From Microbacterium sulfonylureivorans (GTDB lineage Bacteria; Actinomycetota; Actinomycetes; Actinomycetales; Microbacteriaceae), in NCBI RefSeq assembly GCF_003999995.1, contig NZ_RJAD01000002.1:771020-835019 (forward strand): 64,000 nt of DNA, read 5' to 3'. A model generated the notes under the pieces. It was given only the letters and a program-made list of their open reading frames with translations. It had not been told where the DNA came from and ran no database searches. The position numbers and the translations under genes were made by a program. How positions within the stretch are numbered: position 1 is the stretch's first letter; every line of letters starts with the position of its first letter. This document shows positions 14,857 to 33,880 of the stretch, one piece after another.

Positions 14857-16095
14857 TCAGCCGGCCTGTCCGAGCTCGCCGTAGATCGAGAAGATCGGCA
14901 TGTAGAGCGAGATGACCATGCCGCCGATGATGATGCCGATTCCGACGATGAGGATCGGCTCGATCGATGCGGTGAGCTGCGACGTCGCCGCCTCGACCTC
15001 GTTCTCGTAGAACTCGGCGATGCTCTTGAGCATGTCTGCCAGAGTTCCCGACTCCTCGCCGACGGCGATCATCTGCGCGACCATCGGCGGGAAGACCTCT
15101 GCCTTGGAGAGCGGACCGGAGAACGACTTCCCCTGCGTGACCGACTCCTGGATCTCGCGAACCGCCTGCTCGATCTTCCAGTTGTTGGAGGCGGCACCCA
15201 CGATCGACAGCGCCTGCACGAGAGGCACTCCCGCGTCCAGCATCATCGAGAGGCTGCGGGCGAACCGCGCCACGGCGATCTTCGTGGTCAGCGGCCCGAC
15301 CACCGGAAGCTTGAGCCGCCACGGATCCACCACGCGGCGCACCTTCTCCTCCCGGCGATTGCGCACCCACCAGAGCCACCCGGCCGCGCCCACCGCGATC
15401 GCGATGGGGAGGATCCACAGCATGTTGTTCGACAGTGTCACGAGGATCTGGGTCGGGAGGGGCAGCGCCGACCCGAGGTTGGTGAACATGCCCTCGAAGA
15501 TCGGCACGACGAACGTCACCATCGCCACCACGCCGAGTATGGCGATCACGAAGACGATGATCGGATAGGTCGTCGCCGACTTGATCTTGCCCTGCAGCTC
15601 GGCCTCGCCCTGATAGGTCTCGGCGATGGTCGACAGGGATTCGCCGAGGAAGCCGCCGGACTCGCCGACGCGGATCATGCTGACCATGAGCGGCGGGAAG
15701 ACGTCGGGGTGCGCGGCGAGTGCGAGCGAGAACGACGATCCGGACTCCACGGCGGCGCGCACGCTGAGGAGCGCGCTCTGCAGCCGCTTGTCCTCCGCCT
15801 GCTCGACCAGGATCGACAGCGTGCGCATGAGCGGGAGCCCCGCGTTGATGAGGCCCGCCATCTGCTTCGAGAAGACCGCCAGCGTGCCGACCTTGACGCG
15901 CCTCTCGAAGCCGGGAATCGAGACGTCCCGATTGAGGCCCGTCTTCGAGGTGAGCTTCACCTCGAGCGGTGTGAGTCCCTGTGCGCGCAGCTTCGCCGTC
16001 ACACCCGTCGCGCCCGAGGCCTCGAGTGTTCCCTTGACGATGCCGCCGCCGGTCGCGTCGATCGCGCGGTACGTGTACTCCTCGACGAGCGCCAT
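14857..16095 (-). CDS. pilC: type IV pilus inner-membrane platform protein PilC, copy 1
   Basis: 412 residues. Two tandem T2SSF domains: first FSKQMAGLINAGLPLMRTLSIL, second FARSLSMMLDAGVPLVQALSIV, each followed by the GESGG / GEESG motif (SMIRVGESGGFLGESL, QMIAVGEESGTLADML). Three strong membrane helices, the last near the C-terminus (IEPILIVGIGIIIGGMVISLYMPIF). An N-terminal extension (EEYTYRAIDATGGGIVKGTLEA) is usual. It anchors the assembly and retraction ATPases. ATG 16095 shares one base with the pilT1 stop. Last gene of cluster 1; pilC2 at 25551-26786 is its paralogue. Confidence 0.94.
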   Translation of the reverse strand: MALVEEYTYRAIDATGGGIVKGTLEASGATGVTAKLRAQGLTPLEVKLTSKTGLNRDVSIPGFERRVKVGTLAVFSKQMAGLINAGLPLMRTLSILVEQAEDKRLQSALLSVRAAVESGSSFSLALAAHPDVFPPLMVSMIRVGESGGFLGESLSTIAETYQGEAELQGKIKSATTYPIIVFVIAILGVVAMVTFVVPIFEGMFTNLGSALPLPTQILVTLSNNMLWILPIAIAVGAAGWLWWVRNRREEKVRRVVDPWRLKLPVVGPLTTKIAVARFARSLSMMLDAGVPLVQALSIVGAASNNWKIEQAVREIQESVTQGKSFSGPLSKAEVFPPMVAQMIAVGEESGTLADMLKSIAEFYENEVEAATSQLTASIEPILIVGIGIIIGGMVISLYMPIFSIYGELGQAG

Positions 16096-17234
16096 CAGTG
16101 CCCCCATCCGACCGGCTGGGCGTCGGCGTGCGCCGACCACGCATCGGCGTCGAGGTCACGTGGCCGCACGCGTACGCCGTCGAGCGACGCGGGGTCGGTC
16201 GCATAGCTCTTCGCGAGCGCCAGCGAGATCGACCCGTCCTCGACGAGTCTCTTCAGGTCCTGGTCGAGCGTGTGCATGCCCAGGCTCCCTCCCGCCTGCA
16301 GCATCGAGTAGATCTGACTGACCTGTCCCTCACGGATGAGGTTGGCGATGGCGGGCGTGTTCACGAGGACCTCGGTCGCGATCACACGACCGTCCTCCTG
16401 CGCTCGCGGCAGAAGCGTCTGGCTGATGATCCCCTGCAGCGTGTCGCCGAGCTGCGTGCGCACCTGCGCCTGCTGATCGGGTGCGAACGCGTCGACGATG
16501 CGGTTGATCGACTTCGCCGCACTCTGGGTGTGGAGCGTGGAGAGCACCAGGTGACCCGTCTCGGCCGCGGAAAGGGCGGTGGAGATGGATGCCGGATCGC
16601 GGAGCTCTCCGATCAGGATGACGTCGGGGTCCTGCCGCAGGACCCGGCGCAGCGCCTCGGAGAACGAGGCCGTGTCGCTGCCGATCTCGCGCTGGTGGAT
16701 GAGCGACCGCCGGCTGGTGTGCTGGAACTCGACCGGATCCTCGACGGTGACGATGTGCGCCGGGAGGGTGCGATTGACGACGTCGATCATCGAGCTGAGC
16801 GTCGTGGACTTGCCGGAACCGGTCGGACCGGTCACGAGGACCAGCCCCCGCGGCCGCAGGACGAGCTCGCGCGCTGCGGCGGGAACCCCCAGCTCGTCCA
16901 GCGGGCGGATCTGGTCGGGGATGAAGCGCATCGCCACGGCGACATCGCCCAGCTGCCGGAAGACGTTGACGCGGAAGCGGGCGACGTTCGGCACCGTGTG
17001 GGAGAGGTCGACCTCGCCGTGGGTGCGGAACTCTTCCAGCTGGTCGCGCGACATGAGGCTGCCGACGGCCTCGTCGAGCCACGCCGGCGACGTGGCCTCA
17101 GCCCAGCCGGGGATCGGGGTGAGATCACCGTCCACCCGCATGAGAGCGGGGAGTCGCGCCGTCAGGTGCACGTCGGACGCTCGCGAGCGCGCCGCGGTCG
17201 CGAGCATCGAGGTCAGGTCTTCGGATGCGGTCAT
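16095..17234 (-). CDS. pilT: type IV pilus retraction ATPase PilT, copy 1
   Basis: 379 residues starting at MTASEDL (17234), chosen because it lies 1 bp after the pilO1 stop; longer readings run into pilO1. Motifs: SDVHLTARLPALMRVDGDL, Walker A GPTGSGKSTT, Asp box VTVEDPVEFQH, Walker B region DPDVILIGELRD, and His box SAAETGHLVLSTLHTQSA. Hexameric cytoplasmic motor that depolymerises pili and so powers twitching or DNA import. The C-terminal 40 residues (DGVRVRPRDLDADAWSAH) are also conserved in PilT2. Confidence 0.94.
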   Translation of the reverse strand: MTASEDLTSMLATAARSRASDVHLTARLPALMRVDGDLTPIPGWAEATSPAWLDEAVGSLMSRDQLEEFRTHGEVDLSHTVPNVARFRVNVFRQLGDVAVAMRFIPDQIRPLDELGVPAAARELVLRPRGLVLVTGPTGSGKSTTLSSMIDVVNRTLPAHIVTVEDPVEFQHTSRRSLIHQREIGSDTASFSEALRRVLRQDPDVILIGELRDPASISTALSAAETGHLVLSTLHTQSAAKSINRIVDAFAPDQQAQVRTQLGDTLQGIISQTLLPRAQEDGRVIATEVLVNTPAIANLIREGQVSQIYSMLQAGGSLGMHTLDQDLKRLVEDGSISLALAKSYATDPASLDGVRVRPRDLDADAWSAHADAQPVGWGH

Positions 17235-17235
17235 G

Positions 17236-17919
17236 TCAGTCCTCCGTGCGGACGAGGGCGAGGGTGGTGACCGAGAGGGTGTCGCCCTCGAAGGCCGCGT
17301 CGATGGTTGCGAGCAGGCGAGGTCCGCGGCCGAGGGCGTCGATGAACGCACCCGCCGCATCGGCGTCGGCGACGGTCACGGTGATGGTGACGGGGATCTG
17401 CAGCTGCGGCGAGGCGGTGGGCTCGGTCTCCGGCGCAGGCTCGGCCGCGGCTGCGCCGTCGTCGGTGGCGGGCGCCTGACCGCTCGCGTCGTCGGCGGCC
17501 TCGCCTTCGGCGGCGGCGGGTTCGTCGGCGGGGGCGGCCTCCGCGTCGTCGCCGGCGAGGCCGGCGCGTGGTGTCCAGGGCTCGGGGTCGGCGGCTGAGA
17601 CACTCTGGATCTCCGCTCCCGTCGCCCGTGCGGCGTCGACCACGATCTGCATGACGTCGTCGAGCTGGGGGGATGCCGCGATCTGCCGCCGGAGTCCGGA
17701 CACCTCTCCGGTCAGCGCCTCGATCTCGTCCTGGGCGCCGGTGAGCGTGGCGACGCGAACCTCGTACACCTCGTTGGTCTGGGCGACCGTGGCCGTGTCG
17801 CCGTCGATGGAGCGCGCCGAGCTCCACATCGGCAGGGCGATCATCGTCACACCGGCGACGAGCAGCGCCACCACGACGACGACGCCGACCAGATTGATCA
17901 TCTGACGGGGGATGTTCAC
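17236..17919 (-). CDS. pilO: PilO-like type IV pilus alignment protein, copy 1
   Basis: 227 residues from GTG 17919 (GTGA overlap with pilN1). A single N-terminal membrane helix (LVGVVVVVALLVAGVTMIALPMW), a coiled-coil region (YEVRVATLTGAQDEIEALTGEV), then an Ala/Glu/Asp/Pro-rich disordered insert at about residues 110-175, then a ferredoxin-like beta domain (PVTITVTVADADAAGAFIDALGRGPRLLATI). PilO with PilN links PilM to the pilus machinery. The family is assigned from position and layout more than from sequence. The acidic low-complexity insert is unusual and also present in copy 2. Confidence 0.8.
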   Translation of the reverse strand: MNIPRQMINLVGVVVVVALLVAGVTMIALPMWSSARSIDGDTATVAQTNEVYEVRVATLTGAQDEIEALTGEVSGLRRQIAASPQLDDVMQIVVDAARATGAEIQSVSAADPEPWTPRAGLAGDDAEAAPADEPAAAEGEAADDASGQAPATDDGAAAAEPAPETEPTASPQLQIPVTITVTVADADAAGAFIDALGRGPRLLATIDAAFEGDTLSVTTLALVRTED

Positions 17920-18554
17920 TCCGCCTCCTTGTAGGCGCCGGTGTAGACGGATTGGTCGAACACGACGCGCAGCTCGTAGGTGTAGCCGCCCTCGGCCGAC
18001 TGAACCACCCAGCCGTCCGCCTCCATGACTCCGGCAAGCCCGCGGACCGCCCGCACGATGGGCACGACCTCCTGCGGACCTGCACTGGCGATCGTCACCG
18101 TGCCCGCCGCACCGATCTCCGCGGCGGGGTCCTCCCCTTGCGGCGCGCCGGCCGGCGCGAGGCTGAAGCCCGCGATCTCCGCTCCGCCCGGGAGCGTGGC
18201 GCCGATCGCGTCGACGAGACCGTCGAAGCGGAGGTCGGTCGCCATCGCCTCGCTGCGGAACGTGGTGAGCTCCGACTGCAGATCGAGCTGCGCCTGGACG
18301 TCCGAGAGCTCGGCCATCTGCGAGAGGAGCTCCTGCGTTCGGAGGTTCTCGGCCAGAAGGCGCTGGGCGGCGGTGAGCTGCAGCCAGAACGCACCAGCCG
18401 TTGCGATCGCCACGACGGCGATCACGGCGACGAGCGCCGCGATCCATCGGCGGAGAAGCTTCACGCCGTCACGGCGCGCGGTCTCGGACGGCGGGATCAG
18501 GTTGACGAACGGCGTTCCCGCGATGAGGATCGCGGACGTCTTCGCGATCGCCAT
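17916..18554 (-). CDS. pilN: PilN-like type IV pilus alignment protein, copy 1
   Basis: 212 residues. The short cytoplasmic N-terminus carries the PilM-binding type motif (TPFVNLIPPSETARRDG), then one membrane helix (WIAALVAVIAVVAIATAGAFWL), a coiled coil (ERLL-type, TQELLSQMAELSDVQAQLDLQSEL) and a beta-rich domain ending YTYELRVVFDQSVYTG. The same closing words occur in copy 2 (VTFDQSIYSG). Start overlaps the pilM1 stop by one base. Confidence 0.83.
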   Translation of the reverse strand: MAIAKTSAILIAGTPFVNLIPPSETARRDGVKLLRRWIAALVAVIAVVAIATAGAFWLQLTAAQRLLAENLRTQELLSQMAELSDVQAQLDLQSELTTFRSEAMATDLRFDGLVDAIGATLPGGAEIAGFSLAPAGAPQGEDPAAEIGAAGTVTIASAGPQEVVPIVRAVRGLAGVMEADGWVVQSAEGGYTYELRVVFDQSVYTGAYKEAE

Positions 18555-19609
18555 CAGCGCCTCTCCCCCAGCGCGAGGCCGACGGTCGTGAGCAGGTCGA
18601 GACCGACGGTCCCCTGGGGCGCGATCTTCGCCGAGACGACGTCGCTCGCGCTGATGTATGCCACGGGGAGCGGCAGACTGGCCGCGAGCGAATCGCCCAC
18701 CTCGGCCGCGGCGGCTCCGGCGCCGGTGAGGATCACGCGCGATACCGGCACGTCGTTCGCGCGCCCCGCGTAGAACGACAGTGTGCTGCGCATGCGCCCC
18801 ACAAGGTCGGCGAGCGCCGCCTCGGTCATGCCGGCGGCTCGTTCGCTCCGGGCCACGGCTCCGCGGCGGCGCCGTGACGAGGAGGATCCCGAGGCCGCAG
18901 CACCGACGAGCTCTTCGACGACGAGGTCCGCCTCCTCCTCCACAGGGGGCGCGGCGGCGAGCTGGCGCTCGCGCACGGCGTCGGTGAGGATCTCGAGCGG
19001 GAGGATGCGGACGAAGCGGGGCACACCGTCGCGCACGATCACGACGTAGCTGGTGTGGTCGCCGAGGTGCAGCGCCGCCACGGACTCACCCGGTGCGGCG
19101 AGGCGGCTCACGGCCCGCGCGAGCCCGAAGGGCGCGAGGTCGACCGCATCGACCGTCAGCTTCGCCTTCCCGATCGTCGAGACGAGCAGCTCCACGGTCT
19201 CCGCGACCGCGGCCACCAGAAGCCCCGTGATCTCTCCGCCGGTCTGCGACGAGGCGTAGAAGTCGAGCACCGCCTGGTCGGCGGGCACCGGCAGGAGGTC
19301 CTGCACCTGGAACGGGAGCGCCTGCCGCAGGAGGTCGGGGCGGAGAGCCTGCGTCGTGTACTCGCGAACCAGGATGCGGCGGCTGCCGATGCCGAGCACC
19401 ACTCGCCTGCTCGAGAACCGCGCGCCGCTCCAGAGCCGGTGCAGCGCCAGCGTGACGGCGTCGGGATCGAGCACCTCAGAGTCCTTCGCGGCGCCGTCCG
19501 GAAGAGGAACCGCCCCGAAGGCGACGAGAGTCGGCGTGCGGCCGGTCGTCACCTCGGCGGCGCGTACGCCCTCCTCTGTGATCTCCAGCCCGATGATCGT
19601 CTTGGCCAT
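18554..19609 (-). CDS. pilM: PilM actin-like type IV pilus protein, copy 1
   Basis: 351 residues from ATG 19609 (AAGGAGAGGAG upstream). Actin/FtsA-like fold: phosphate-1 loop TIIGLEITEEGVRAAEV, SSRRVVLGIGSRRILVREYTT, adenosine region GESVAALHLGDHTSYVVIV and RVILTGAGAAAAEVGDSL. It forms the cytoplasmic ring that binds PilN. A Ser/Arg-rich insert (GSSSSRRRRGAVARSERAAG) interrupts the region before the last subdomain. 32 bp separate it from pilD. Confidence 0.9.
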   Translation of the reverse strand: MAKTIIGLEITEEGVRAAEVTTGRTPTLVAFGAVPLPDGAAKDSEVLDPDAVTLALHRLWSGARFSSRRVVLGIGSRRILVREYTTQALRPDLLRQALPFQVQDLLPVPADQAVLDFYASSQTGGEITGLLVAAVAETVELLVSTIGKAKLTVDAVDLAPFGLARAVSRLAAPGESVAALHLGDHTSYVVIVRDGVPRFVRILPLEILTDAVRERQLAAAPPVEEEADLVVEELVGAAASGSSSSRRRRGAVARSERAAGMTEAALADLVGRMRSTLSFYAGRANDVPVSRVILTGAGAAAAEVGDSLAASLPLPVAYISASDVVSAKIAPQGTVGLDLLTTVGLALGERR

Positions 19610-19641
19610 CGTCCGTCTCCTCTCCTTATCGCGCGACCGCG

Positions 19642-20466
19642 TCACGCGATCGCGAACAGCCCTACGTACCACTGGGCGATGGACTCGCCCCAGACGATCC
19701 CGACCCATGCGCCGGCAAGCATGAACGGCCCGAACGGGATGGCCGACTTGCGCCCGGCGCGACGAAGGAGCATCAGCGCGATGCCGAAGACGCCGCCGAC
19801 CAGGAACGCGGCGAAGGCACCGACCGCGAAGGAGCCCCAGCCGAGCCAGGCGAGATACGCACCCACCACTCCTGCGAGCTTCACGTCGCCGCCGCCCATG
19901 CCCGCCGGGCGGATGACGCGAAGCAGGAAGTAGAAGAGGTAGAGCGCCACGGCGCCGATCCCCGCGCGCAGCAGCGCCGACCAGTCCGCGCCGAGAAGGC
20001 ACGCCGCGGTGAAGAGCACGGCGACCACGCCGTAGCCCGGCAGCACGATGCTGTTCGGCAGGCGGCGCGTGTCGAGGTCGATGAGCGCGAGCGCGATGCT
20101 GATGGCCGCGAAGTAGAGGTACGCGACCGTGACGACGACGGATGCCGCGTTCCACGCGCCTTCGCCGAGGAACAGCCACGCGACACCGGCGAACGCCAGC
20201 GCTGTCGCGAGCTCCACGAGCGGGTAGCGCACCGAGATCGGAGCACCGCACGACGCGCAGCGGCCGCGCAGGGCGAGCCACGAGACCACGGGAACGTTCT
20301 GCCACGGACGCACGGGCGCACCGCATGACGGGCAGCGGCTCTCACGGGTGAGAGGGATGCCGGCCGGCACGCGATAGATCACGACGTTGAGGAACGACCC
20401 GATGACGAGGCCGAGCAGTCCGGCGAAGACGAGCACGAGCGCGAGGGCGGCGGGGGCGAGGGTCAC
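19642..20466 (-). CDS. pilD: prepilin peptidase / N-methyltransferase PilD
   Basis: 274 residues from GTG 20466. Complete type 4 prepilin peptidase: first helix with GLVIGSFLNVVIYRVPAG, then the cytoplasmic zinc-type domain with two CxxC pairs (CPSCGAPVRPWQNVP and GRCASCGAPIS), then membrane helices holding both catalytic aspartates (ALIDLDTRRLPN and GMGGGDVKLAG). It cleaves after the Gly of prepilin leaders and methylates the new N-terminus. It is the only complete PilD in the window; cluster 2 carries a version lacking everything between the first helix and the last 52 residues. GTGA overlap with pilX1. Confidence 0.95.
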   Translation of the reverse strand: MTLAPAALALVLVFAGLLGLVIGSFLNVVIYRVPAGIPLTRESRCPSCGAPVRPWQNVPVVSWLALRGRCASCGAPISVRYPLVELATALAFAGVAWLFLGEGAWNAASVVVTVAYLYFAAISIALALIDLDTRRLPNSIVLPGYGVVAVLFTAACLLGADWSALLRAGIGAVALYLFYFLLRVIRPAGMGGGDVKLAGVVGAYLAWLGWGSFAVGAFAAFLVGGVFGIALMLLRRAGRKSAIPFGPFMLAGAWVGIVWGESIAQWYVGLFAIA

Positions 20467-22022
20467 GGGATCTCCTGGGGCGCGATGTCGCGCTGCGAGA
20501 CGAGCGCACCGAGCAAGCCTGTCCCACCGCCCGCTCCGCTGCCCGACGACATTCCGGGGAGGGCGATCGGATCGGCGGTGAAGTCCAGGCCGCTGCCGTG
20601 GCTCCAGCCTCCACCGTAGAACGAGCCGCTCCAGGCGTCGCGGATGCCTCCGGCGTTGCCCGACACAGTGATCTTGCAGGGGGTGTAGATCATCGCCGCG
20701 ATGCTGGTAGCGGTCACGGTCCCGTTGATGATCGTCGGCCCGTAACCGCTGCCGCACGAGGGCTTGTTGTCGGTGGGGGTGATGTCCTCGGTGACGAACC
20801 AAACTTTGGGCTTCGAAGGCAGACCGGCCGCGGCTTTCATCGTGAGGGTCGTCAGGTCCGGGTTCTTGGCGAGAATCACAAGATTCGTCTTGATCGAGAC
20901 GACGGGAGTCGAGCCGTTCCCAGATCGGAGATTCGTGCAAGCGCGTGCGTCGATGATGGTGGGGGCGCTGTAACCGGCGAGCGAGGTCCATCCTGTTCCC
21001 GGTGACTCATTGAAATACCCGCACGACCCGGGACCGCTGCCGGAATTGACGAGTGTCACGACGGCGTAGCCCGGCCAGTCCGCTGCCTTGTACTTGTACT
21101 CGAACCACGGCGGCAGCGTCGGCGGTGTAGGGCCGGCCACCGTCGAAGGACGCACGACACCGCCGGTGACGGCTCCCTGGTCCTGGTTGAACGTGCGGGT
21201 CGAGGGCAGTGTCAGGGTTCCGTCGATGCGCACGTTTCCCAGTGACACGTTGCCGCTGGTGGTGACCGACTTGCCGACGCGCTTGCCGCCCCACCCGAAG
21301 TTGAGAGCCCCGTTTGCATGGATGTTTCCGAGGATCGTCCCCTCCACCTTCCCGGCGCCGGTCCCCGAGGTTGACAGGTCTCCTTCGATCGTGTCGCTCG
21401 CGCAGCAGATGTCGACGATGCCGCCCGCGCGGACATTGCCTTTGATCGTGCAGCCGCCGCTCGCCTCGATGTTGCCCCCGACCGTGATGTTTCCCGGAAG
21501 CATCGTGTGACAGTCGAAGGTCGCCTGAGGGACGACGATGTCGAGCAGCCGCCCCGTCGCCATGGGTCTCACTTCGTAAGTGAAGTCCACGCTCCCGGTC
21601 CCGAAGAACACCATGTCGCCCGCGATCGACGGCGTCTCGGTGTAGCGGTAGACGGCCTGGGTCGTCGTCATGCCCGTTCCGGCCTTGCCCGTGGCCGTGA
21701 TCGTGGCCACGCCGGCGCCGCACGTCACGCTGTAGCTGAAGGTCGGGGACTTGGCATCCGTCCCGTCGACCCGTACGTCGTGCAGGGCACCTGGGCAGGC
21801 GAGGGAGCCGCGGCGCAGCGCGCTCACGGCCTCGGCGAGGCCGGCGTCGGCCGAGGCGCGCGACTGCGCGGTGCTGCGGCTGTCGGAGAGGGTCGCCGTC
21901 GTGTTCGTCACGATCGCGGCGAGGGCGAGTCCGCCGATGCTCAGCACGAGCATGACGACGAGCGCCGAGACGAGCGTCGATCCGCGGTCGCCCGGGTCTG
22001 CGAGCCGCGCTCCGCGTGTCAC
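20463..22022 (-). CDS. PilX-like minor pilin with large beta-helical passenger, copy 1
   Basis: 519 residues from GTG 22022 (GTGA overlap with pilW1). N-terminal pilin-like helix (GSTLVSALVVMLVLSIGGLALAAIVT) without the usual Glu5, then AQSRASADAGLAEAV as in PilX-type proteins. The middle (about 175-290) is a run of short G-rich hexapeptide-like rungs (GNITVGGNIEASGGCTIKG) resembling bactofilin or parallel beta-helix structure, followed by a Cys-containing globular part. Probably an exported tip or minor pilus subunit with adhesive or structural role (inference). GC content is lower than in flanking genes. Paralogue at 30628-32196, much diverged. Confidence 0.78.
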   Translation of the reverse strand: MTRGARLADPGDRGSTLVSALVVMLVLSIGGLALAAIVTNTTATLSDSRSTAQSRASADAGLAEAVSALRRGSLACPGALHDVRVDGTDAKSPTFSYSVTCGAGVATITATGKAGTGMTTTQAVYRYTETPSIAGDMVFFGTGSVDFTYEVRPMATGRLLDIVVPQATFDCHTMLPGNITVGGNIEASGGCTIKGNVRAGGIVDICCASDTIEGDLSTSGTGAGKVEGTILGNIHANGALNFGWGGKRVGKSVTTSGNVSLGNVRIDGTLTLPSTRTFNQDQGAVTGGVVRPSTVAGPTPPTLPPWFEYKYKAADWPGYAVVTLVNSGSGPGSCGYFNESPGTGWTSLAGYSAPTIIDARACTNLRSGNGSTPVVSIKTNLVILAKNPDLTTLTMKAAAGLPSKPKVWFVTEDITPTDNKPSCGSGYGPTIINGTVTATSIAAMIYTPCKITVSGNAGGIRDAWSGSFYGGGWSHGSGLDFTADPIALPGMSSGSGAGGGTGLLGALVSQRDIAPQEIP

Positions 22023-22636
22023 CAGCACGTGAGGGTGTCCGTTCCTTCGATGACGGCCTGTGCGGTCACGCCATTGGAGAGCGCGACGGTCGCGTCGCCA
22101 CGGACGATGTCGAGGCCGATCGTCAGCGCCTGCCCGCTGCGCGAGAACGCGTCGGTGCGCCCGTCGCCGTCGGCGTCGATCGGGACGAACTTGGGCGTCC
22201 CATCGGGATTGTTCCCGTCGCGACGAGACAGCGACGGTCGTGCACCGTCGCCGCTCGCCGCGTCGCCGTCGACGAGCACGGTCCACGTGCTCGTGTCGGA
22301 GGTGGAGATGACGGATGCCGCGACCCGGTACCGCACATCGCCACCGGTCGTCACGACCCATGCCCGGCACTCCCGACCGCCCCCCGGGGTCGAGACCTTC
22401 GCGATCAGCGCACGATTGGCCGAAGTGATCGTGAAGGCCGTGGCATTGCGCAACGACGTCTGGATGGAGTTGCCGACCACAACGGACTGACCGGTCGCGG
22501 CATCGCGATCTGTGGTCTGCGCCTGGGCGCGGAGTCCGTCTGCGAACATGAGGGCCAGCAATCCTAGGAAGAGCGCCGAGACGGCGAGATAGATGATGAG
22601 TTCGACGAGGGTGACCCCGTCGTCGTCGCGGATCAC
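22019..22636 (-). CDS. PilW-like minor prepilin, copy 1
   Basis: 205 residues from GTG 22636. Class III prepilin signal DDDG with cleavage before VTLVELIIYLAVSALFLGLLAL, including the hallmark Glu at mature position 5. The rest is a globular domain (NSIQTSLRNATAFTITSANRALI) with a calcium-like DADGDGRTDAF. Minor pilins of this kind prime pilus assembly. Start and stop both overlap neighbours by 4 bp. Confidence 0.85.
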   Translation of the reverse strand: MIRDDDGVTLVELIIYLAVSALFLGLLALMFADGLRAQAQTTDRDAATGQSVVVGNSIQTSLRNATAFTITSANRALIAKVSTPGGGRECRAWVVTTGGDVRYRVAASVISTSDTSTWTVLVDGDAASGDGARPSLSRRDGNNPDGTPKFVPIDADGDGRTDAFSRSGQALTIGLDIVRGDATVALSNGVTAQAVIEGTDTLTCW

Positions 22637-23040: not shown

Positions 23041-23065
23041 GTGATCCCCCCTCCACGCGGAGGTA

Positions 23066-26786: not shown

Positions 26787-26787
26787 G

Positions 26788-28005
26788 TCAGTTCCTCAGA
26801 TCCTGGTCGGGCGTGCCGAAGCGCGATCCCATGCCGATGCTGGTGCCGACGGTCTTGCTCGTCGCGATCGAGTGAGGATCCGGCTGATGCCACTCCCCCG
26901 CGTGGAGCGCCCAGCCCTCGACGTCGAGGTCACGCGGGCGCACGTGGACTCCGTCGAGCGTCTTCGGGTCGACGGCGAACGACTTCGCGACGTTGACCGC
27001 GATCGTCCCGTCCTCGACGAGACGGCGAAGGTCCTGATCGAGCGTGTGCATGCCGACCGACGAACCGGCCTGCATGGCGGAGTACAGCTGCGCCACCTGC
27101 CCCTCGCGGATCATGTTGGCGACCGCCGGCGTGTTGATCAGCACCTCGGTCGCGATGGTGCGGCCGTCGGTCTGCGACAGCGGCATGAGAGTCTGACTGA
27201 TGATCCCCTGCAGCGTGTCGCCGAGCTGCGTGCGGATCTGTGCCTGCTGATCCGACGGGAACACGTCGACGATGCGGTTGACGGCCTTGGCCGCGCCCTG
27301 GGTGTGCAGTGTCGACAGGACGAGGTGGCCGGTCTCGGCGGCGGAGAGGGCTGTGCGGATCGACTCCGGATCTCGGAGCTCGCCGATGAGGATCACATCG
27401 GGGTCTTGCCGGAGGACGCGCCGCAGCGCCTCCGCGAACGACGAGGTGTCGCTGCCGACCTCGCGCTGGTGGATGAGCGCCCGCTTGCTCTCGTGGTGGA
27501 ACTCGATCGGGTCCTCGATCGTGATGATGTGCGCCGGAATGAGCTGATTGACGATGTCGATCATCGCCGTCAGCGTCGTCGACTTGCCCGATCCCGTCGG
27601 ACCGGTGAGCAGCACGAGTCCGCGGGGCCTGAGGGCGAGGTCGCGCGCGATCGGCGGCGCCCCGAGCTCTTCGAGCGAGTACACGCGATCGGGGATGAAG
27701 CGGAGCGCGATCGCGATCGATCCGAGCTGACGGAAGACGTTCACGCGGAATCGCCCGAGTCCGGGGCTCGCGAGCGCGAGATCGACCTCCTGGCGCTCCG
27801 CGAACTCCTCGCGCTGCATCGCCGACATGAAGCCGAGCGCCGCGGCGTCGACCCACGCTTCGCTCAGAGGTTCGGGGAACCCGCCCACGGGCACCAGATC
27901 GCCGTCCACGCGCATGAGCGGGGGTCGACCTGCCGTGATGTGCACGTCCGAGGCCCGGTGACGGGCGGCCCGGGCGAGCAGCGCGTCCATGGTGATGTCG
28001 GTCAT
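26788..28005 (-). CDS. pilT: type IV pilus retraction ATPase PilT, copy 2
   Basis: 405 residues, 26 longer than PilT1 because of a C-terminal tail (VGTSIGMGSRFGTPDQDLRN). Core motifs are present: SDVHITAGRPPLMRVDGDLV, Walker A GPTGSGKSTT, TIEDPIEFHHESKRA, ILIGELRDPESIRT, AAETGHLVLSTLHTQGA. ATG 28005 lies 3 bp after the pilO2 stop. Two retraction motors with one assembly motor is an uneven set. Confidence 0.94.
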   Translation of the reverse strand: MTDITMDALLARAARHRASDVHITAGRPPLMRVDGDLVPVGGFPEPLSEAWVDAAALGFMSAMQREEFAERQEVDLALASPGLGRFRVNVFRQLGSIAIALRFIPDRVYSLEELGAPPIARDLALRPRGLVLLTGPTGSGKSTTLTAMIDIVNQLIPAHIITIEDPIEFHHESKRALIHQREVGSDTSSFAEALRRVLRQDPDVILIGELRDPESIRTALSAAETGHLVLSTLHTQGAAKAVNRIVDVFPSDQQAQIRTQLGDTLQGIISQTLMPLSQTDGRTIATEVLINTPAVANMIREGQVAQLYSAMQAGSSVGMHTLDQDLRRLVEDGTIAVNVAKSFAVDPKTLDGVHVRPRDLDVEGWALHAGEWHQPDPHSIATSKTVGTSIGMGSRFGTPDQDLRN

Positions 28006-28008
28006 CGT

Positions 28009-28707
28009 TCAACCCTCCGAGTCGACGAACGTCAACGCGCTGACCTGCACCTCGACGGCGGTGCCCGTGAGAGTGGTCGTCGCGGTGATCCCCGCGAGCA
28101 GTCGCGGCCCGGCTCGCAGAGCGTCGAGGAACCGCGTCACCTGCGCCATGTCGTTCGCGGTCACCGCGATCGTGAAGTCGACCTGCTGCCGACCTGTGAG
28201 GGGCGCATCGGCGCCTTCGTCGATGACGGTTCCCGCGTCGGTCGCCACGCCCTCGGCCGCCTCGGTCGCCTCGCCTTCGGCCGCGGCGCCGTCCGTGCCG
28301 TCCTCCGGAGCGGGTGCCGGTACGGCGACCGGCTCCTCGCCGGGCGCGCTCGCGGCGGTGCGCGCGACGAACGCCGCAGACTCGCCCGCGGTCGCACTCG
28401 TGATCGTGACGCCCGCGGTATCTGCGGCGCGCCCGACGACCTCGAACACGTCGTCGAGCTGGTTGGCTGCCGGGATCTCGGTGCGCAGGGCCGCAACCGA
28501 CGCGTCGATCTCGCCCTGACGATCGGCCTCGGTCTCGAGCGTGTCGACCTGCGCCTGGTAGAGAGCGTTGGTGTCGGCGACAGTGGCTGTCTCGCCGTCG
28601 ACGGCGAGCGACTGCATCCACATGGGCAGCGCGACGAGCGCGACGCCCACGGCGACCACGCCCAGCGAGACGACCAGGCCGATGATGGTGACGAGCTGCT
28701 TGGGCAT
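28009..28707 (-). CDS. pilO: PilO-like alignment protein, copy 2
   Basis: 232 residues. One N-terminal helix (VTIIGLVVSLGVVAVGVALVALPMW), coiled coil (YQAQVDTLETEADRQGEIDASV), an Ala/Glu/Pro-rich disordered insert (about residues 120-175, EEPVAVPAPAPEDGTDGA) and a C-terminal ferredoxin-like domain (QVDFTIAVTANDMAQVTRFLDALRAGPRLLAG). Same layout as PilO1 with weak identity outside the helix and DALRAGPRLLA region. ATG 28707 shares one base with the pilN2 stop. Confidence 0.8.
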   Translation of the reverse strand: MPKQLVTIIGLVVSLGVVAVGVALVALPMWMQSLAVDGETATVADTNALYQAQVDTLETEADRQGEIDASVAALRTEIPAANQLDDVFEVVGRAADTAGVTITSATAGESAAFVARTAASAPGEEPVAVPAPAPEDGTDGAAAEGEATEAAEGVATDAGTVIDEGADAPLTGRQQVDFTIAVTANDMAQVTRFLDALRAGPRLLAGITATTTLTGTAVEVQVSALTFVDSEG

Positions 28708-29354
28708 CAGTCTTCCTCTCCCTCGGCGGCGTACCGGCCGGAGTAGATGCTTTGGTCGAACGTGACCGTGAGCAGGTAGGTGTAGGCGCCCTCGGTGACA
28801 CTGCTCGACGTGACGGACTGCCCGTCGGCGTAGAGCACGCCTGGCACCTGCCGGAGATCGCGCACAGCGGCGACGATGTCGATCGGGTTGGCGCTGCCGA
28901 CCGAGACCGTGCCGGTGAGACCGGGCTCGGCCGAGGGGTCGTCGCCCTGCGGCACTCCGCCGCTGACGAGGTCGAAACCGGTCAGGGCAGCGCCGCTGGG
29001 CAGGCTGGCGGCGATCGATGCGACGACGGGGGCCCATGCGAAGTCCGCCCCCATGGCCTCCGCGCGGAAGCCCGTGAGCTCCTGCTCGGTGGCGAGCGCC
29101 TGGCTGACGTCCGCGAGAGCGGCGAGTTCGCCGAGGAGCGCGTTCGTCTCCGCCTGCTCGGCGGCGAGCCGCTGATCGGCCGCCCACTTGAGTGCGAAGG
29201 CTCCGGCGATGACGAGCAGGGCGACGACGATCGCGGCGAGCACGCCCCACATCCAGCCGCGCAGGACTGTGTCGCGCTCGCGGCGGGCGACCTCCGATCG
29301 CGGCATGAGGTTGATGCGCGGCACTCCGCCGACCGGCGGATTGAGAGCGGTCAT
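28707..29354 (-). CDS. pilN: PilN-like alignment protein, copy 2
   Basis: 215 residues. N-terminal PilM-contact motif VPRINLMPRSEVARRERD, one helix (WGVLAAIVVALLVIAGAFAL), coiled coil (ERLAAEQAETNALLGELAALAD), then a beta domain with GVPQGDDPSAEPGLTGTVSVGS and LTVTFDQSIYSGRY. It matches PilN1 in order and closing words. Start overlaps the pilM2 stop by one base. Confidence 0.83.
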   Translation of the reverse strand: MTALNPPVGGVPRINLMPRSEVARRERDTVLRGWMWGVLAAIVVALLVIAGAFALKWAADQRLAAEQAETNALLGELAALADVSQALATEQELTGFRAEAMGADFAWAPVVASIAASLPSGAALTGFDLVSGGVPQGDDPSAEPGLTGTVSVGSANPIDIVAAVRDLRQVPGVLYADGQSVTSSSVTEGAYTYLLTVTFDQSIYSGRYAAEGEED

Positions 29355-30373
29355 CAGCGCACCTCCCCGAGAGCGATGCCGACGGTCGACACCAGATTGA
29401 GCGCGAGATCGCCCGTCGTCTGCACGGCACGCACCCCGACGATCTCCTCGACCGAGACGCTCCGCAGCGGCGCGTCGATGACCGTGGTGAGGGTCTCCAT
29501 CACCCCGGGTACAGAGACTCCAGCGCCGGTGACGAACACCTGCTCGATCGGCGCCGCCCCGGGCCGCCCCGCGAAGAAGGCGAGGGTGCTGCGCACCCGC
29601 GCCGCCAGGTCGGAGACGATCGGATGGTGGGATGCCGCAGCCCGAAGGCCGCTGCGGGCCCGCGTGGTGGGCGGCACGAGCTCGAGCGACGACTCGAGCA
29701 CGGCGACGGCATCCATCGTCACGGGCGACTGCCGCAGCGATGCCATCGTGGGCACGTCGAGCGGGAGGATGCGCACGAACTGCGGGACTCCGCCGCGCGA
29801 GACGACGACCTGCGTGGTGTGGTCGCCGATGAACACGGTCGCCACGGTCTGGCCGGGATCGGAGAGCCGGGCCGTCGCCCGGGCGAGGCCGAACGCGGTC
29901 AGATCCACCCCTCGGGCGCGGAGCTTGACCTTGCCCAGGGTGGCGATGATCTGCTCGACCGTCTCCGACACGGCGGCCACCAGAAGGCCGCTCACCCGGT
30001 CTCCGTCCTGGCCGAGCGGGAAGAAGTCGAGCACGGCCTGGCTCGCGGGCACGGGCAGCAGGTCCTGCACCTGGTAGGGCAGCGCTTCGCGGAGGAGATC
30101 GGGCCGCATCGCCTGTGTGGTGTACTCGCGCACCAGGATGCGCCTGCTGGCGACGCCGAGCACGACGTCCCGGCTCTTGAAGCGGGCTCCTGTCCAGAGT
30201 TGACGCAGCGCGACGGCAACGGTGCCCGAGTCGAGCACCTCCGAGTCCTTCGCGGCGTCGGGCGGCAGCGGCACCTCACCGCAGGCGATCACCTGCGGAT
30301 TTCGAGACACGGTGATCTCAGCGGCGCGGACGCTCTCCTCCGTCAGTTCGAGTCCGACGATCGTTTTCCCCAT
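29354..30373 (-). CDS. pilM: PilM actin-like protein, copy 2
   Basis: 339 residues from ATG 30373 (AAAGGAAG upstream). TIVGLELTEESVRAAEITV, RDVVLGVASRRILVREYTTQ, GQTVATVFIGDHTTQVVVS and QVFVTGAGVSVPGVM are the actin-type nucleotide-binding segments. It lacks the Ser/Arg insert of PilM1. It lies 15 bp downstream of the shortened PilD gene. Confidence 0.9.
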   Translation of the reverse strand: MGKTIVGLELTEESVRAAEITVSRNPQVIACGEVPLPPDAAKDSEVLDSGTVAVALRQLWTGARFKSRDVVLGVASRRILVREYTTQAMRPDLLREALPYQVQDLLPVPASQAVLDFFPLGQDGDRVSGLLVAAVSETVEQIIATLGKVKLRARGVDLTAFGLARATARLSDPGQTVATVFIGDHTTQVVVSRGGVPQFVRILPLDVPTMASLRQSPVTMDAVAVLESSLELVPPTTRARSGLRAAASHHPIVSDLAARVRSTLAFFAGRPGAAPIEQVFVTGAGVSVPGVMETLTTVIDAPLRSVSVEEIVGVRAVQTTGDLALNLVSTVGIALGEVR

Positions 30374-30388
30374 GAACGATCTTCCTTT

Positions 30389-30625
30389 CTAGTTGCCCGA
30401 ATAGAGGCTGATGTGGGCGTGGCCGAGGGCCTCGCCGGCGAAGACGCCCGTCCAGGCGCCGGTGAGCATGAAGGGACCGAACGGAATGGCGGTCTTGCGT
30501 CCGGCGCGTCGCGCGGCGATGAGGGCGAGCCCGACGATTCCTCCGACGACGACGCTCAGGAACGATCCGATCGCGAGACCGAAGACTCCCGCGACGACGA
30601 CGAGCAGCAGATCGAGAGGACTCAT
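30389..30625 (-). CDS. PilD-derived 78-residue membrane protein, catalytic region deleted
   Basis: 78 residues from ATG 30625 (GGAG 8 nt upstream), at the pilD position of cluster 2. Residues 1-26 match the start of PilD collinearly (GLAIGSFLSVV against GLVIGSFLNVV). The rest matches the last 52 residues of PilD (RRAGRKTAIPFGPFMLTGAW against RRAGRKSAIPFGPFMLAGAW). About 195 intervening residues, including both CxxC pairs and both catalytic aspartates, are missing, yet the frame is open. It cannot be a peptidase. It is either a decaying remnant or a kept two-helix membrane protein; the intact reading frame and ribosome site argue for translation. Confidence 0.8.
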   Translation of the reverse strand: MSPLDLLLVVVAGVFGLAIGSFLSVVVGGIVGLALIAARRAGRKTAIPFGPFMLTGAWTGVFAGEALGHAHISLYSGN

Positions 30626-30627
30626 GA

Positions 30628-32196
30628 TCAGAGCTCCGTCTGGTACACGAGGCCGCCGAGGCGCTGCACGAGCGAGCCCTCGGCGACGCCGCCCGCGCCC
30701 TTGATCTTGCATCCGAGCTGGTCGAAGGCCGGGCTCCACGACATCGACTTGCAGGTGTACGTCGCGCTCGCGTGCATATGGGTCGAGTCGTTCGTGTAGT
30801 ACTGCCCGGAGAAGCTCGACGTCGCGGTGCCGGTGATCCCGCACGGGGTGTACATCATGATCCGCACGTTCGCGTCGACGGCGCCCGACACGTCGAACTT
30901 GTCGTTCTGGTTGCCGTTGCCGCAGTTCGGCACGGGCTCGCCCCCCGTGTAGTTGCGCGTGGCGTCGGAGTGGATGAAGAGGATCTGGCGGTTGTTGCCG
31001 TCATCACCGACCGTGCCGTTCACGTCCACCAGCAGCCGCACGCTCGGCTTGGCGATCATCACGACATCGCGAACCGGCGTGACATTGCCCAGGGTGATGT
31101 CGACGGCACCGTTGCCGCATCCCGTGAAGTCGAGCACGAGCCGACTGCCGGGAGTCTCGACGAGCTGCTTGATGGTCGGGTTGGGGTTGTTCCTGATGAG
31201 GTTGCAGACGTTCGTTGCCGAGTAGACGGTGCCCCACCCGGTGTTGTCGAGGTCGATCCACTTGGTCGCGGCCCTGAGCCATTCGAGCGTCGGTTCGAAC
31301 ACCGGGTCGGTCGGGCTGTTCGGAGTGCGTGTGCCGGGCGCGGTCCATTTCGAACCGACCGAGATCGAGTTCCTGCTCGTCAGGTTGCCGGTGACGGATG
31401 CCTGCGTGCTGCCCTGATCGCTGAGCGTCAGGTTGCCCTTGGCGGTGACGAACCCGTCGATCAGGGCACCGCCGTTGGACGAGATGTCGACGTACCCGTT
31501 CGTCGTGATGTCACCGCGCACCTTGATGGCCTGGCTATTGCTCGTCACATTGCCGTTCGACCAGATATCGCCGTTGACCTGGCAGTTGTTCGCGAAGTTG
31601 GTGTCCCCCTGCAGCACGTAGAGGTCGCCGTCGAGAATGCCGTCGACGTTGCACGACCAGTTGCCGTCGCGCAGCACCAGGTCGCCGGTGTAGTGCGAGA
31701 CTCCGGCCGTGAACCCTCCGGAGAAGTAGGTGACGACGCCGCCCGGCTGCTGCGAGTAGGCCACCTGCCATGGGTACACGGCATCGATGGTCGCGGTGGA
31801 TCCGTCCGCCCCGGTGCCGGTGGAGCGGATCACGACGTACCGCGTCGTCGAGGTGGGACAGCCGGCTGCAACCCCGGGGGCGGTCGCCGAGGCGGGCTGA
31901 TTGCCGGCGGTCGAGTAGACGGCGCTCAAGTAGATCGGGTCCGTCCCCGTGAACGTGATCGCCGAGCAGCCGGCGGCGATCGAGGCGACGGCCACGTCTC
32001 GCCCCGACTCGGCCGCCACGAACGCCTGCGTCTCGCTGCGGTTCTGCGCGTTCGCCTGGATGGTGAAGAGCACGGATGCCGCCACCACCGACGCCACGAT
32101 GAAGCCGACGAGCATCACGATGACGACGGTGATGAGCACGGCGCCTTCGTCGCCCTTGCCGCGAGCGCGGCGCAAGATCTTGTCGATCACCAGCAT
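30628..32196 (-). CDS. PilX-like minor pilin with beta-helical passenger, copy 2
   Basis: 522 residues from ATG 32196 (GGGGGTGAG upstream; GTG 32190 giving a GTGA overlap is an alternative). N-terminal helix (GAVLITVVIVMLVGFIVASVVAASVLFTI) then NRSETQAFVAAESGRDVAVA as in PilX. Central rungs (LDGDLYVLQGDTNFANNCQVNGDIWSN; short G-D-I/L steps) look like a parallel beta-helix, followed by a Cys-rich globular end (NVCNLIRNN, TGCGNGAVDI, TPCGITGTA). Similar size and plan to PilX1 but little sequence identity: the fastest-diverging part of the two clusters, as expected for a surface-exposed subunit. Confidence 0.78.
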   Translation of the reverse strand: MLVIDKILRRARGKGDEGAVLITVVIVMLVGFIVASVVAASVLFTIQANAQNRSETQAFVAAESGRDVAVASIAAGCSAITFTGTDPIYLSAVYSTAGNQPASATAPGVAAGCPTSTTRYVVIRSTGTGADGSTATIDAVYPWQVAYSQQPGGVVTYFSGGFTAGVSHYTGDLVLRDGNWSCNVDGILDGDLYVLQGDTNFANNCQVNGDIWSNGNVTSNSQAIKVRGDITTNGYVDISSNGGALIDGFVTAKGNLTLSDQGSTQASVTGNLTSRNSISVGSKWTAPGTRTPNSPTDPVFEPTLEWLRAATKWIDLDNTGWGTVYSATNVCNLIRNNPNPTIKQLVETPGSRLVLDFTGCGNGAVDITLGNVTPVRDVVMIAKPSVRLLVDVNGTVGDDGNNRQILFIHSDATRNYTGGEPVPNCGNGNQNDKFDVSGAVDANVRIMMYTPCGITGTATSSFSGQYYTNDSTHMHASATYTCKSMSWSPAFDQLGCKIKGAGGVAEGSLVQRLGGLVYQTEL

Positions 32197-32711
32197 GGTG
32201 AACTCACCCCCGTCGGCGTCGAGCGGGTCGACACCTCTCCTGAGAACCGCACCGGTGCGGAGTCGGTCTCGATGTCGAACGTGTAGACGAGGTGCTGGCC
32301 CGTCGCGACGAAGAACGGCGTGGCGCCGTTCTTCTTGACGCCCGTGTTCCACACCGTCCACGACGTGGTGGTGGATGGCAGCAGACCCGAGGACTGGGCG
32401 AGCCGAGAAGTCCCGGTCGCGAGGTAGAAGGCCTGACACTGCTGAGAGCCGGTGAGAGACGTCCGCACCCGCAGCTCCTGCTGATCGGGCGACACCTCGA
32501 AGTCGAGCGCGTTGCGCATCGCGCGTTCGATGGTCGATCCCATCGACTGACCGCGGTTCGTCGCTTCGCTCACGCTGGTCACGTCCTTCTGGGTGTTCCA
32601 CGAGTTGATGAGGATCATCGCGGTCGTGAGCACGACGATGCTGGCGAGCAGCACGTAGACGATGAGTTCGATGAGCGAAACGCCCGCGTCACGATGGCTG
32701 TCGTGGTTCAT
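32187..32711 (-). CDS. PilW-like minor prepilin, copy 2
   Basis: 174 residues. Leader MNHDSHRDAG, cleavage before VSLIELIVYVLLASIVVLTTAMIL with Glu5. The globular part (STIERAMRNALDFEVSPDQQELRVRT) parallels PilW1 but is 31 residues shorter and lacks the DADGDG loop. Ends SSPCW; PilW1 ends LTCW. Start overlaps the pilV2 stop by 4 bp. Confidence 0.85.
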   Translation of the reverse strand: MNHDSHRDAGVSLIELIVYVLLASIVVLTTAMILINSWNTQKDVTSVSEATNRGQSMGSTIERAMRNALDFEVSPDQQELRVRTSLTGSQQCQAFYLATGTSRLAQSSGLLPSTTTSWTVWNTGVKKNGATPFFVATGQHLVYTFDIETDSAPVRFSGEVSTRSTPTGVSSPCW

Positions 32712-33082
32712 GGCACGTAGATGATCGCGGTCGTTGTAGCCAGCGTCGTGCCGGATGAATCAACGGCAGTCAGCGCGAGCTTCACGGTCTTCGTCGTCAC
32801 GGGACACGAACCGACTGTGCCGGAGGTGCTGATCGTGCGACCCGCGCCGTCGGTCACGGTCTTCGATACCGCGACAGCCGAGAGATTCGGACACGTCGGA
32901 GTGTCCCGCGCCTCCTCGACGAGAGCATTGAGTTCGCGAGTAGCGGTGGCGACGGCAGACTGCTGCGACGAGTAACGGAGGCCCTGCCACAAAGCCGGCA
33001 AGAGTGCGACCGCCACCAAGGCGAGGAGGAACATCGCGATCAGGATCTCTACGACACTGAATCCGCGTTCATCCTTCTGCAT
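32708..33082 (-). CDS. PilV-like minor prepilin, copy 2
   Basis: 124 residues. Leader MQKDERG, cleavage before FSVVEILIAMFLLALVAVALLPAL with Glu5. The globular region has two Cys (TPTCPNLSAV, VGSCPVTTKT). 75 bp downstream of pilA2, beyond a hairpin, as in cluster 1. GAGGGAGATACGG lies before ATG 33082. Confidence 0.86.
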   Translation of the reverse strand: MQKDERGFSVVEILIAMFLLALVAVALLPALWQGLRYSSQQSAVATATRELNALVEEARDTPTCPNLSAVAVSKTVTDGAGRTISTSGTVGSCPVTTKTVKLALTAVDSSGTTLATTTAIIYVP

Positions 33083-33109
33083 CCGTATCTCCCTCTCTCG
33101 GGTGGTCCA

Positions 33110-33138
33110 GACCGGAGCCCGATGAACGGACCCCGGCC
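33110..33138 (-). terminator. hairpin between pilA2 and pilV2
   Basis: An 8-bp stem with two G-T pairs (GACCGGAG with CCCCGGCC, plus-strand reading), 20 bp after pilA2. Weaker than the cluster 1 hairpin but at the same place. Confidence 0.45.
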
Positions 33139-33157
33139 TGAACTGCGGCGGTATTGA

Positions 33158-33556
33158 CTACACGCAACCCGAGTTGGTTGCATTCGCCTTGGGACCGGCG
33201 TACTTCGTCACACCGTCGACGGTCGCCTTTACGCAGATGGCCTCGATCGTGGTCGCTGCAGACACACCCCAGTCGACATCCGACACCTTGCCGTTCTCGA
33301 GGTTCGTGAAGCTGACGGTCTGACCCTGCGCGATCTGAGCGGCCGCCTGAGTCGCGCCGTTCGCCGCGACCGAAAGGGCAGCGTTGTTCTTCGCATCCGC
33401 CTGGATGTTAAGGAAGATCGGGATCGCGATCGCGGCGAGAATGCCGAGGATCACGACGACGATGATGAGCTCGATCAGCGAGAATCCGCCGTCTTCGCCC
33501 CGCTCTTCGCGCTGCTTCTTGAGCGCGTCCCGGTAGTTGATGATTGATGCACGCAT
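33158..33556 (-). CDS. pilA: major type IV pilin PilA, copy 2
   Basis: 132 residues from ATG 33556, preceded by GGGGAGACA. Leader of 23 residues ending DGG, cleavage before FSLIELIIVVVILGILAAIAIPIFLNIQ with Glu5. Small C-terminal domain with one Cys pair (EAICVKATVDG ... ATNSGCV). The leader and helix closely resemble PilA1, as does the following AANGATQAAxxIAQ; the rest differs. First gene of cluster 2, with a leader RNA of about 220 nt. Confidence 0.95.
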   Translation of the reverse strand: MRASIINYRDALKKQREERGEDGGFSLIELIIVVVILGILAAIAIPIFLNIQADAKNNAALSVAANGATQAAAQIAQGQTVSFTNLENGKVSDVDWGVSAATTIEAICVKATVDGVTKYAGPKANATNSGCV

Positions 33557-33683
33557 GTGCGCTGTCTCCCCTGTGATGGTTGGTTGAAGACAGCCCCGAT
33601 GAACCGCGCGTGAGCACGGCAGATCCCGTGCATGACAGAGCACGGTGAAACCACGCGATCAATCAGCGTGGTCGATTCGAAAA

Positions 33684-33714
33684 CCCCAGTTTCGTAGAAG
33701 AATCCCCAGTTTCG
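33684..33714 (-). repeat. two CCCCAGTTTCG direct repeats in the pilA2 leader
   Basis: Copies at 33684-33694 and 33704-33714, period exactly 20 bp (two DNA turns). They lie downstream of the predicted start of transcription, so could act in DNA (repressor) or in the leader RNA. Confidence 0.6.
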
Positions 33715-33784
33715 CGTCCCAGCACTTCATCAGAGCCGGGTCTGGAACGCACGCACAGGATGCGTGAATCCCCTCCCACCCTTG

Positions 33785-33880
33785 AGCATGAGATGTCTCT
33801 CATCGACTGTCAACGGACTCTGCCCCTGGTCTTCCTCAGGAACGCCTCAGGATCCGGCATCCGCCATTGACTTGCTCAGG
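33785..33880 (-). promoter_or_regulatory. promoter and operator of T4P cluster 2
   Basis: On the minus strand: consensus -35 TTGACA (33813-33808), a perfect ATGAGA-N4-TCTCAT palindrome (33803-33788) in the spacer, and -10 CATGCT (33790-33785) at 17 bp. Upstream, CCTCAGG words at 33834-33840 and 33845-33851 (11-bp period) and GCTCAGG at 33874-33880. The -35 and palindrome align without gaps to those of cluster 1. Confidence 0.65.

Follow-up and report, generated by a model that had tools for sequence, protein, structure and literature searches.

Two type IV pilus clusters and a single extension ATPase in a tandem locus of Microbacterium sulfonylureivorans

In the single-cluster type IVa pilus (T4aP) loci of other Microbacterium, pilB lies on one strand and pilA-V-W-X-D-M-N-O-T-C on the other. 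The T4aP locus reported for Bifidobacterium is similar, with pilB together with pilT and nine genes on the opposite strand that start with pilA, pilV, pilW and pilX (PMC13091076). Several pilus operons are described for many Gram-positives (PMC3244431), and prepilin peptidases are described as exchangeable between type IV filament systems, there being mannose-sensitive haemagglutinin (MSH) loci without one of their own (PMC6668835). In Haloferax volcanii, the loss of pilB1-C1 is reported to be rescued by PilB3-C3, with no rescue in the opposite direction (PMC6491452). Here we describe a type IV pilus (T4P) locus in a stretch of 64,000 nucleotides from Microbacterium sulfonylureivorans (assembly GCF_003999995.1, contig NZ_RJAD01000002.1, positions 771,020 to 835,019; below, the window). 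It differs from the single-cluster actinobacterial loci in that a second core without pilB stands alongside, and the core adjacent to pilB has no working pilD. The match required between extension motor and platform in T4P assembly is, to our knowledge, not settled, and no report of two T4P cores with one PilB was found in the open-access literature, as far as its text was available.

On the basis of gene content, ancestry and selection, we propose, with a probability of roughly three in four, that the locus encodes two T4aP-type machines in a monoderm cell, which share one PilB, belonging to the right-hand unit (R), and one prepilin peptidase PilD, belonging to the left-hand cluster (L). Pilins, minor pilins, a PilM-N-O frame, PilC and PilT are present separately for each machine. 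PilD_L would mature the prepilins of both clusters, and the PilM-N-O-PilC base of each cluster would carry its own filament. PilB would dock on PilC_L and PilC_R in turn, extending either filament, and PilT_L and PilT_R would each retract their own.

The locus occupies positions 14857-33556 of the window and consists of two collinear T4P clusters in tandem, both on the minus strand and both transcribed in the order pilA-V-W-X-D-M-N-O-T-C. Cluster L spans 14857-23508 and cluster R 25551-33556, with pilB (23769-25436) between them on the plus strand. The features are as follows (aa, amino acids; bp, base pairs; percentages are amino acid identities).

14857-16095, minus: pilC_L, platform protein, 412 aa (T2SSF, E 4e-63; 68% to pilC_R)
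16095-17234, minus: pilT_L, retraction ATPase, 379 aa (T2SSE; TIGR01420 pilT_fam 446 bits, cut-off 319)
17236-17901, minus: pilO_L, 221 aa (position; 35% to pilO_R, E 1e-23; no Pfam match)
17916-18554, minus: pilN_L, 212 aa (position; 47% to pilN_R)
18554-19609, minus: pilM_L, 351 aa (PilM_2, E 1e-15)
19642-20466, minus: pilD_L, full prepilin peptidase, 274 aa (A24_N_bact, E 9e-33; Peptidase_A24, E 1e-14)
20463-22022, minus: pilX_L, large pilin-like protein, 519 aa (hydrophobic N-terminal segment; position; 25% to pilX_R, E 2e-14; no Pfam match)
22019-22636, minus: pilW_L, minor pilin, 205 aa (N_methyl, E 0.001, below the Pfam cut-off)
22633-23040, minus: pilV_L, minor pilin, 135 aa (N_methyl, E 2e-6)
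23110-23508, minus: pilA_L, major pilin, 132 aa (N_methyl, E 2e-7)
23509-23768, no strand: divergent intergenic region between pilA_L and pilB, 260 bp (alignable across the four genomes that have the junction)
23769-25436, plus: pilB, sole extension ATPase, 555 aa, R lineage (MshEN and T2SSE, E 3e-136; tree and topology test)
25551-26786, minus: pilC_R, 411 aa (T2SSF, E 4e-64)
26788-28005, minus: pilT_R, 405 aa (T2SSE; TIGR01420 448 bits, cut-off 319)
28009-28707, minus: pilO_R, 232 aa (position; identity to pilO_L)
28707-29354, minus: pilN_R, 215 aa (position; identity to pilN_L)
29354-30373, minus: pilM_R, 339 aa (PilM_2, E 1e-17)
30389-30625, minus: pilD_R remnant, 78 aa, in frame, without catalytic core (no Pfam match)
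30628-32196, minus: pilX_R, 522 aa (position; 25% to pilX_L)
32187-32711, minus: pilW_R, minor pilin, 174 aa (N_methyl, E 0.001, below cut-off)
32708-33082, minus: pilV_R, minor pilin, 124 aa (N_methyl, E 2e-6)
33158-33556, minus: pilA_R, major pilin, 132 aa (N_methyl, E 8e-7; 50% to pilA_L)

Identity between L and R is 70% for PilT, 68% for PilC, 52% for PilM, 47% for PilN and 35% for PilO among the machinery, and 50% for PilA, 34% for PilV, 26% for PilW and 25% for PilX among the pilins. A preliminary description, made from the sequence alone, had seen here two complete collinear clusters reaching to 33880, with near-identical gene lengths, a single pilB of opposite strand between them, and PilC and PilT kept close while pilins (here 26-50%), PilX and PilO diverged. 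The lengths (PilA 132/132 aa, PilC 412/411 aa), the single pilB and the pattern of divergence are all borne out. The collinear order and common strand also stand, but the locus ends at 33556 and the clusters are not both complete, pilD_R being reduced to 78 aa with its core gone. The same description had one PilB serving two cores, each with its own PilT and PilC; the gene content agrees, and the sharing is the probable reading given above.

The class III prepilin N-terminal methylation motif is present, N_methyl scoring above cut-off in PilA and PilV of both clusters; the Pfam scan gave no N_methyl match for either PilX, and a match below cut-off for both PilW. Both clusters have a platform PilC with two T2SSF domains, a retraction ATPase recognised by TIGR01420, and a PilM-N-O complex, in which PilN and PilO are assigned only by position and L/R identity, and PilM scores below the cut-off of TIGR01175 (pilM) despite its PilM_2 matches. 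The best NCBIfam model for PilB is TIGR02538 (632.8 bits, below the cut-off of 675.65). A profile search found no Secretin (PilQ) match anywhere in the genome, so the locus is not of the diderm T4aP kind, which fits a cell with a single membrane. Nor is it a Tad/Flp (type IVc) locus, since its ATPases are of PilB and PilT types and the Tad-like genes lie elsewhere.

No second PilB, for which the preliminary description had proposed a search, was found in the whole genome, which is given as 99.99% complete. When all 59 candidates were scored, five proteins matched T2SSE at E 1e-20 or better, these being one full-profile PilB (455 bits), two PilT, and two elsewhere that adjoin T2SSF genes. The last two look like Tad/CpaF ATPases, and match PilB or PilT over a stretch only, at 32% and 38%. 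A remnant of a pilB_L was also sought, and there is no second PilB stretch in window positions 9001-40000 at E 1e-4. The gap between the BrkB-like gene and pilC_L is 72 bp, with no pilB_L in it.

The pilD_R gene consists of the first ~27 codons of a prepilin peptidase gene fused in frame to its last 51. Relative to pilD_R of M. flavescens (G170) and M. gallinarum (G095), where the gene is full (276 codons each as cut), ~198 codons are missing. The missing middle includes the catalytic region, where the catalytic residues of prepilin peptidases presumably lie, and the cysteine motifs, leaving R without a peptidase of its own. PilD_L is the only A24 peptidase above cut-off in the genome. Given the gutted pilD_R and the single PilB, therefore, each cluster is short of one gene: there is no pilB belonging to L, and no functional pilD belonging to R.

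A search of ~5.8 billion proteins, with 57 candidates scored, gave 12 matches to pilD_R, one of them the window's own; the other 11 are pieces of the C-terminal half, or are joined to other sequence, and none (0/11) has a fusion of this type. The last 51 codons keep a third-position bias, with nonsynonymous (dN) and synonymous (dS) divergences of 0.07 and 0.47 against G170 and 0.10 and 0.45 against G095, this dN being ~2x that between G095 and G170 at the same codons (0.04). A conserved function for the 78 aa product was considered and set aside: because the fusion is seen in none of the 11 other matches, a fairly recent deletion explains the bias equally well. The gap may also be a false deletion from assembly.

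Quick trees were built from loci of the genus (PilB 64 rows, PilC 67, PilT 63, PilM 66, PilD 66). PilC, PilT, PilM and PilD of L group with those of the L clusters of G170 and G095 and of Microbacterium sp. CFH 31415 (G017), with support of 99-100, in a lineage that other species also carry as their sole cluster. PilC, PilT and PilM of R group with the R copies of G170 and G095 (99, 92 and 99), within another lineage, in which PilD_R of G170 and G095 likewise falls. Under the model used, the approximately unbiased (AU) test rejects a PilC tree in which L and R of the double-cluster genomes make up a single clade (p 1.4e-60). The PilB of the window lies in an R-type clade of 24 rows (Shimodaira-Hasegawa-like approximate likelihood ratio support, SH-aLRT, 100), separate from an L-type clade of 14 rows (100), and a topology that places all four PilB of this group with the L-type clade is also rejected (AU test, p 2e-4). 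The window's PilB is 72% identical to that of G012. L-type PilB is present in 13/14 rows of the L-type PilC fork (support 94; the four genomes excluded), the exception being G114, which has a long branch in the PilB tree. Cluster R thus has beside it an extension ATPase of its own lineage, and cluster L has none, no L-type PilB being found in the genome. Among related-PilB loci with names, 22/26 are from Microbacterium. On these trees, L and R represent separate lineages within the genus, each of which usually occurs alone with a pilB, and which are here joined at one site.

The most informative relative is CFH 31415 (L054), which has an L cluster with one PilC (L type) and one PilB (R type), and no R cluster. 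Its right flank resumes 73 bp past the last PilB codon. Because its PilB is nested with those of G095 and G170 in the PilB tree (99), loss of the R cluster appears to be the simpler reading. This PilB is intact, and against that of G095 has dN 0.008 and dS 0.30 over 555 codons, which is strong purifying selection. A PilB that served only R should be free to decay, yet this one is constrained. This genome therefore suggests, and is the best evidence, that R-type PilB can drive L. The argument depends on the time since R was lost, and a very recent loss would weaken it.

Selection was estimated between the window and G170 and G095, with G017 added for L and PilB; dS is ~0.5 to 0.8 against the two double-cluster species. 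The dN/dS ratio is 0.07 to 0.19 for PilB, PilD_L, and PilC, PilT and PilM of both clusters, 0.21 to 0.36 for PilN and PilO, and 0.12 to 0.60 for PilV, PilW and PilX. The machinery of both clusters is under purifying selection. The earlier view that both copies are kept is thus upheld, in comparison with two species that have both.

These results can be set against three other explanations. The preliminary description took the arrangement for an old duplication, and a tandem duplication inside the lineage followed by divergence would account for clusters that are collinear, adjacent and on the same strand. We regard it as extremely improbable, in view of the PilC test above and because PilC, PilT and PilM (and PilD where whole) of L and R group with different single-cluster species. 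The trees of PilC, PilT and PilM that had been suggested as a check do not pair the copies, and a local duplication is unsupported. Clusters from unrelated sources, which the same description named as the outcome that would overturn it, are found only in part: the lineages are different, but both belong to the T4P family of the genus. A further explanation is that L is extended by another ATPase, either PilT_L acting in both directions or a Tad/CpaF-like protein, and that PilB serves R only. There are precedents, since CpaF of Caulobacter is reported to drive both extension and retraction, and PilT to help start extension of the Vibrio cholerae mannose-sensitive haemagglutinin (MSHA) pilus (PMC9815625), and the genome does hold two further T2SSE genes adjoining T2SSF genes. 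We nevertheless think it very unlikely: the constrained R-type PilB kept by CFH 31415, with its L cluster only, would be unexplained unless R was lost very recently, the rest of the L-type PilC fork has L-type PilB in all rows except one, and the two candidate ATPases match PilB or PilT over a stretch only.

It is also conceivable that one cluster is decaying and makes no pilus, either R with its gutted pilD or L with no pilB. The internal deletion of pilD_R in the window, where G095 and G170 have the full gene, the absence of R from CFH 31415, and a broken T4P locus in M. trichothecenolyticum (L076) would all be in keeping with this. However, every other gene of both clusters is open in the window, the machinery has dN/dS of 0.07 to 0.36 against the two species, and one PilD is reported to be able to serve two systems (PMC6668835), so that we consider decay rather unlikely, though a cluster may have lost its function very recently.

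Against two machines that share one PilB and one PilD, a number of observations should be noted. PilA changes fast, with dN/dS of 0.39 to 0.74 in the three comparisons possible, and a weak partial A24-like match (15 bits, below cut-off) is present elsewhere in the genome. Some relatives have a PilB for each PilC, namely G074 and G281 in the genus, with two of each, and G443 (3 PilC, 3 PilB), G477 (2, 2; 77% complete) and G595 (2, 2) in the family. L shows no R-like adaptation beyond controls: the count of positions at which all four L clusters have an R-like state is 0 in PilC, PilT and PilN, and 1 in PilM, PilO and PilD, compared with 0-5 in PilC and 0-2 each in PilT, PilM, PilN, PilO and PilD of single L-only rows. 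We list this here, but it neither helps nor refutes. Two described systems agree with the proposal in part only. In Haloferax, a PilB-PilC pair is not tied to one pilin set, but pilB and pilC were tested jointly there, and the rescue is one-way (PMC6491452). In V. cholerae, a single cell has two T4aP machines, the MSHA and competence pili, that use the same motor ATPase, but this is PilT, and the extension motors are separate (PMC9815625).

The distribution was surveyed in 366 genomes of the genus, of which 106 have a PilC match (E 1e-80) and 112 a PilB match (E 1e-60); a maximum of five PilC and three PilB candidates were scored per genome, and counts of extra copies are lower bounds. Two PilC occur in at least six genomes, those of the window (G000), G095, G170, G198, G074 and G281. 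With these six rechecked and all their candidates scored, two PilC and one PilB were found in 4/366 (G000, G095, G170 and G198), and the set-up was rightly called uncommon. G198 is a separate tandem, with its one pilB at one outer end. In G074, a broken PilT is not claimed, as the internal TGA listed for it is at the very start of the match, before the aligned gene. Of 299 genomes sampled from the family, 146 have a PilC match and 148 a PilB match, and four besides that of the window have more than one PilC. One of these, G556, from another genus, has three clusters (3 PilC), two PilB and one A24 peptidase (G556:C11:112000-185000; L102-L104). Its third cluster is behind the second, without pilB or detected pilD, and the first also shows no pilD. 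With the group of the window, G198 and G556 differing in layout and lineage, one-pilB tandems therefore appear to have arisen at least three times in the family.

As to the insertion site, most single-cluster loci with a BrkB-like gene have the order BrkB-like gene, pilB, then pilC to pilA. The BrkB-like gene is seen in 44/69 long-PilB loci, within 600 bp of a pil gene in 40/44 and of pilB in 38; it was not seen in the other 25/69, some because the available stretch ends and others perhaps because the locus is at a different place. In a tree of two left-flank genes (39 rows), the window shares a fork (99) with G012 and G242, of which the first has an L unit and the second an R-type unit from a different subgroup. 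G012 is also close in the trees for PilC_L (fork 87) and PilM_L (97). PilT_L is discordant and falls beside M. fluvii (87), and PilC_R has its nearest relatives in G194, G331 and G333, which are remote in their flanks. Because the left flanks and PilC_L and PilM_L point to G012, and the flanks of the relatives of PilC_R are distant, L is, with moderate weight, the resident and R the incoming unit. The R unit would have joined a resident L unit at the same site. In the common ancestor of the four genomes, pilB_L would already have been missing, either lost or never next to this L. The middle of pilD_R would have been lost on the window's own line, and in CFH 31415 the R cluster would have disappeared, leaving its R-type PilB to power L.

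We hypothesise further, and consider the odds even, that PilB is a transferable motor module, such that where two T4P units come together at one chromosomal site, a single motor survives and serves both platforms. This is one claim, and its even odds also cover the at least three origins and what follows here. If it is true, two such units could come to depend on each other by reciprocal loss, one having lost pilB and the other pilD, and where the donor cluster is later lost, the resident machine would run on a motor ~28% different from the usual type of its lineage. CFH 31415 would then be a finished natural motor swap.

Several further observations were made in the course of the survey. The window's genome has two sets of Tad-like ATPase plus T2SSF genes (G000:C2:70846-73519 and G000:C3:431665-432848; L052, L053), and since no other A24 peptidase scores above cut-off, PilD_L might serve these too. 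In M. gallinarum (L009), pilX-W-V-A of cluster L diverge from the window (PilX 33%, PilW 49%, PilV 55%), with PilC, T, M and D at 83-93% and PilX closest to that of G076 (65%); the block looks like an exchanged pilin cassette. The pilW_L match of M. flavescens (L080/L074) is split into two overlapping pieces, which suggests a frameshift or sequencing error. M. trichothecenolyticum DSM 8608 (L050/L076) has a decayed T4P locus, in which PilB is matched only up to residue 225, PilC, T, O, N and V gave no match, and PilX and PilM are cut. In L041 (G015) and L043 (G076), pilT and pilC do not close the pilA operon but follow pilB directly on its strand, which looks like an inversion of the motor genes. 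Beside the locus, window positions 35981-37645 (plus strand) encode a DUF222 plus HNH protein.

In comparison with the known systems, the locus differs from that of V. cholerae in having a PilT for each cluster and a single extension motor. Thermus makes both of its pili with a single machine. The wide and narrow pili of Thermus thermophilus are likewise two filament types in one cell, but are described as differing by pilin (PilA4, PilA5), with PilA4 needed for both (PMC7203116), whereas here the pilins, PilM-N-O, PilC and PilT are all doubled. The exchangeable prepilin peptidases are similar in that one peptidase is common to several systems (PMC6668835); in the present locus, an in-frame remnant in a single genome records the loss of the second pilD. 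The system is otherwise of a known kind, and what would be new is motor capture and reciprocal loss between T4P machines. Close relatives span one cluster with its own motor, two with two, two with one, and one with the motor of another lineage. This natural range of combinations makes motor-platform specificity directly testable, and the locus indicates a route by which pilus machines may exchange parts.

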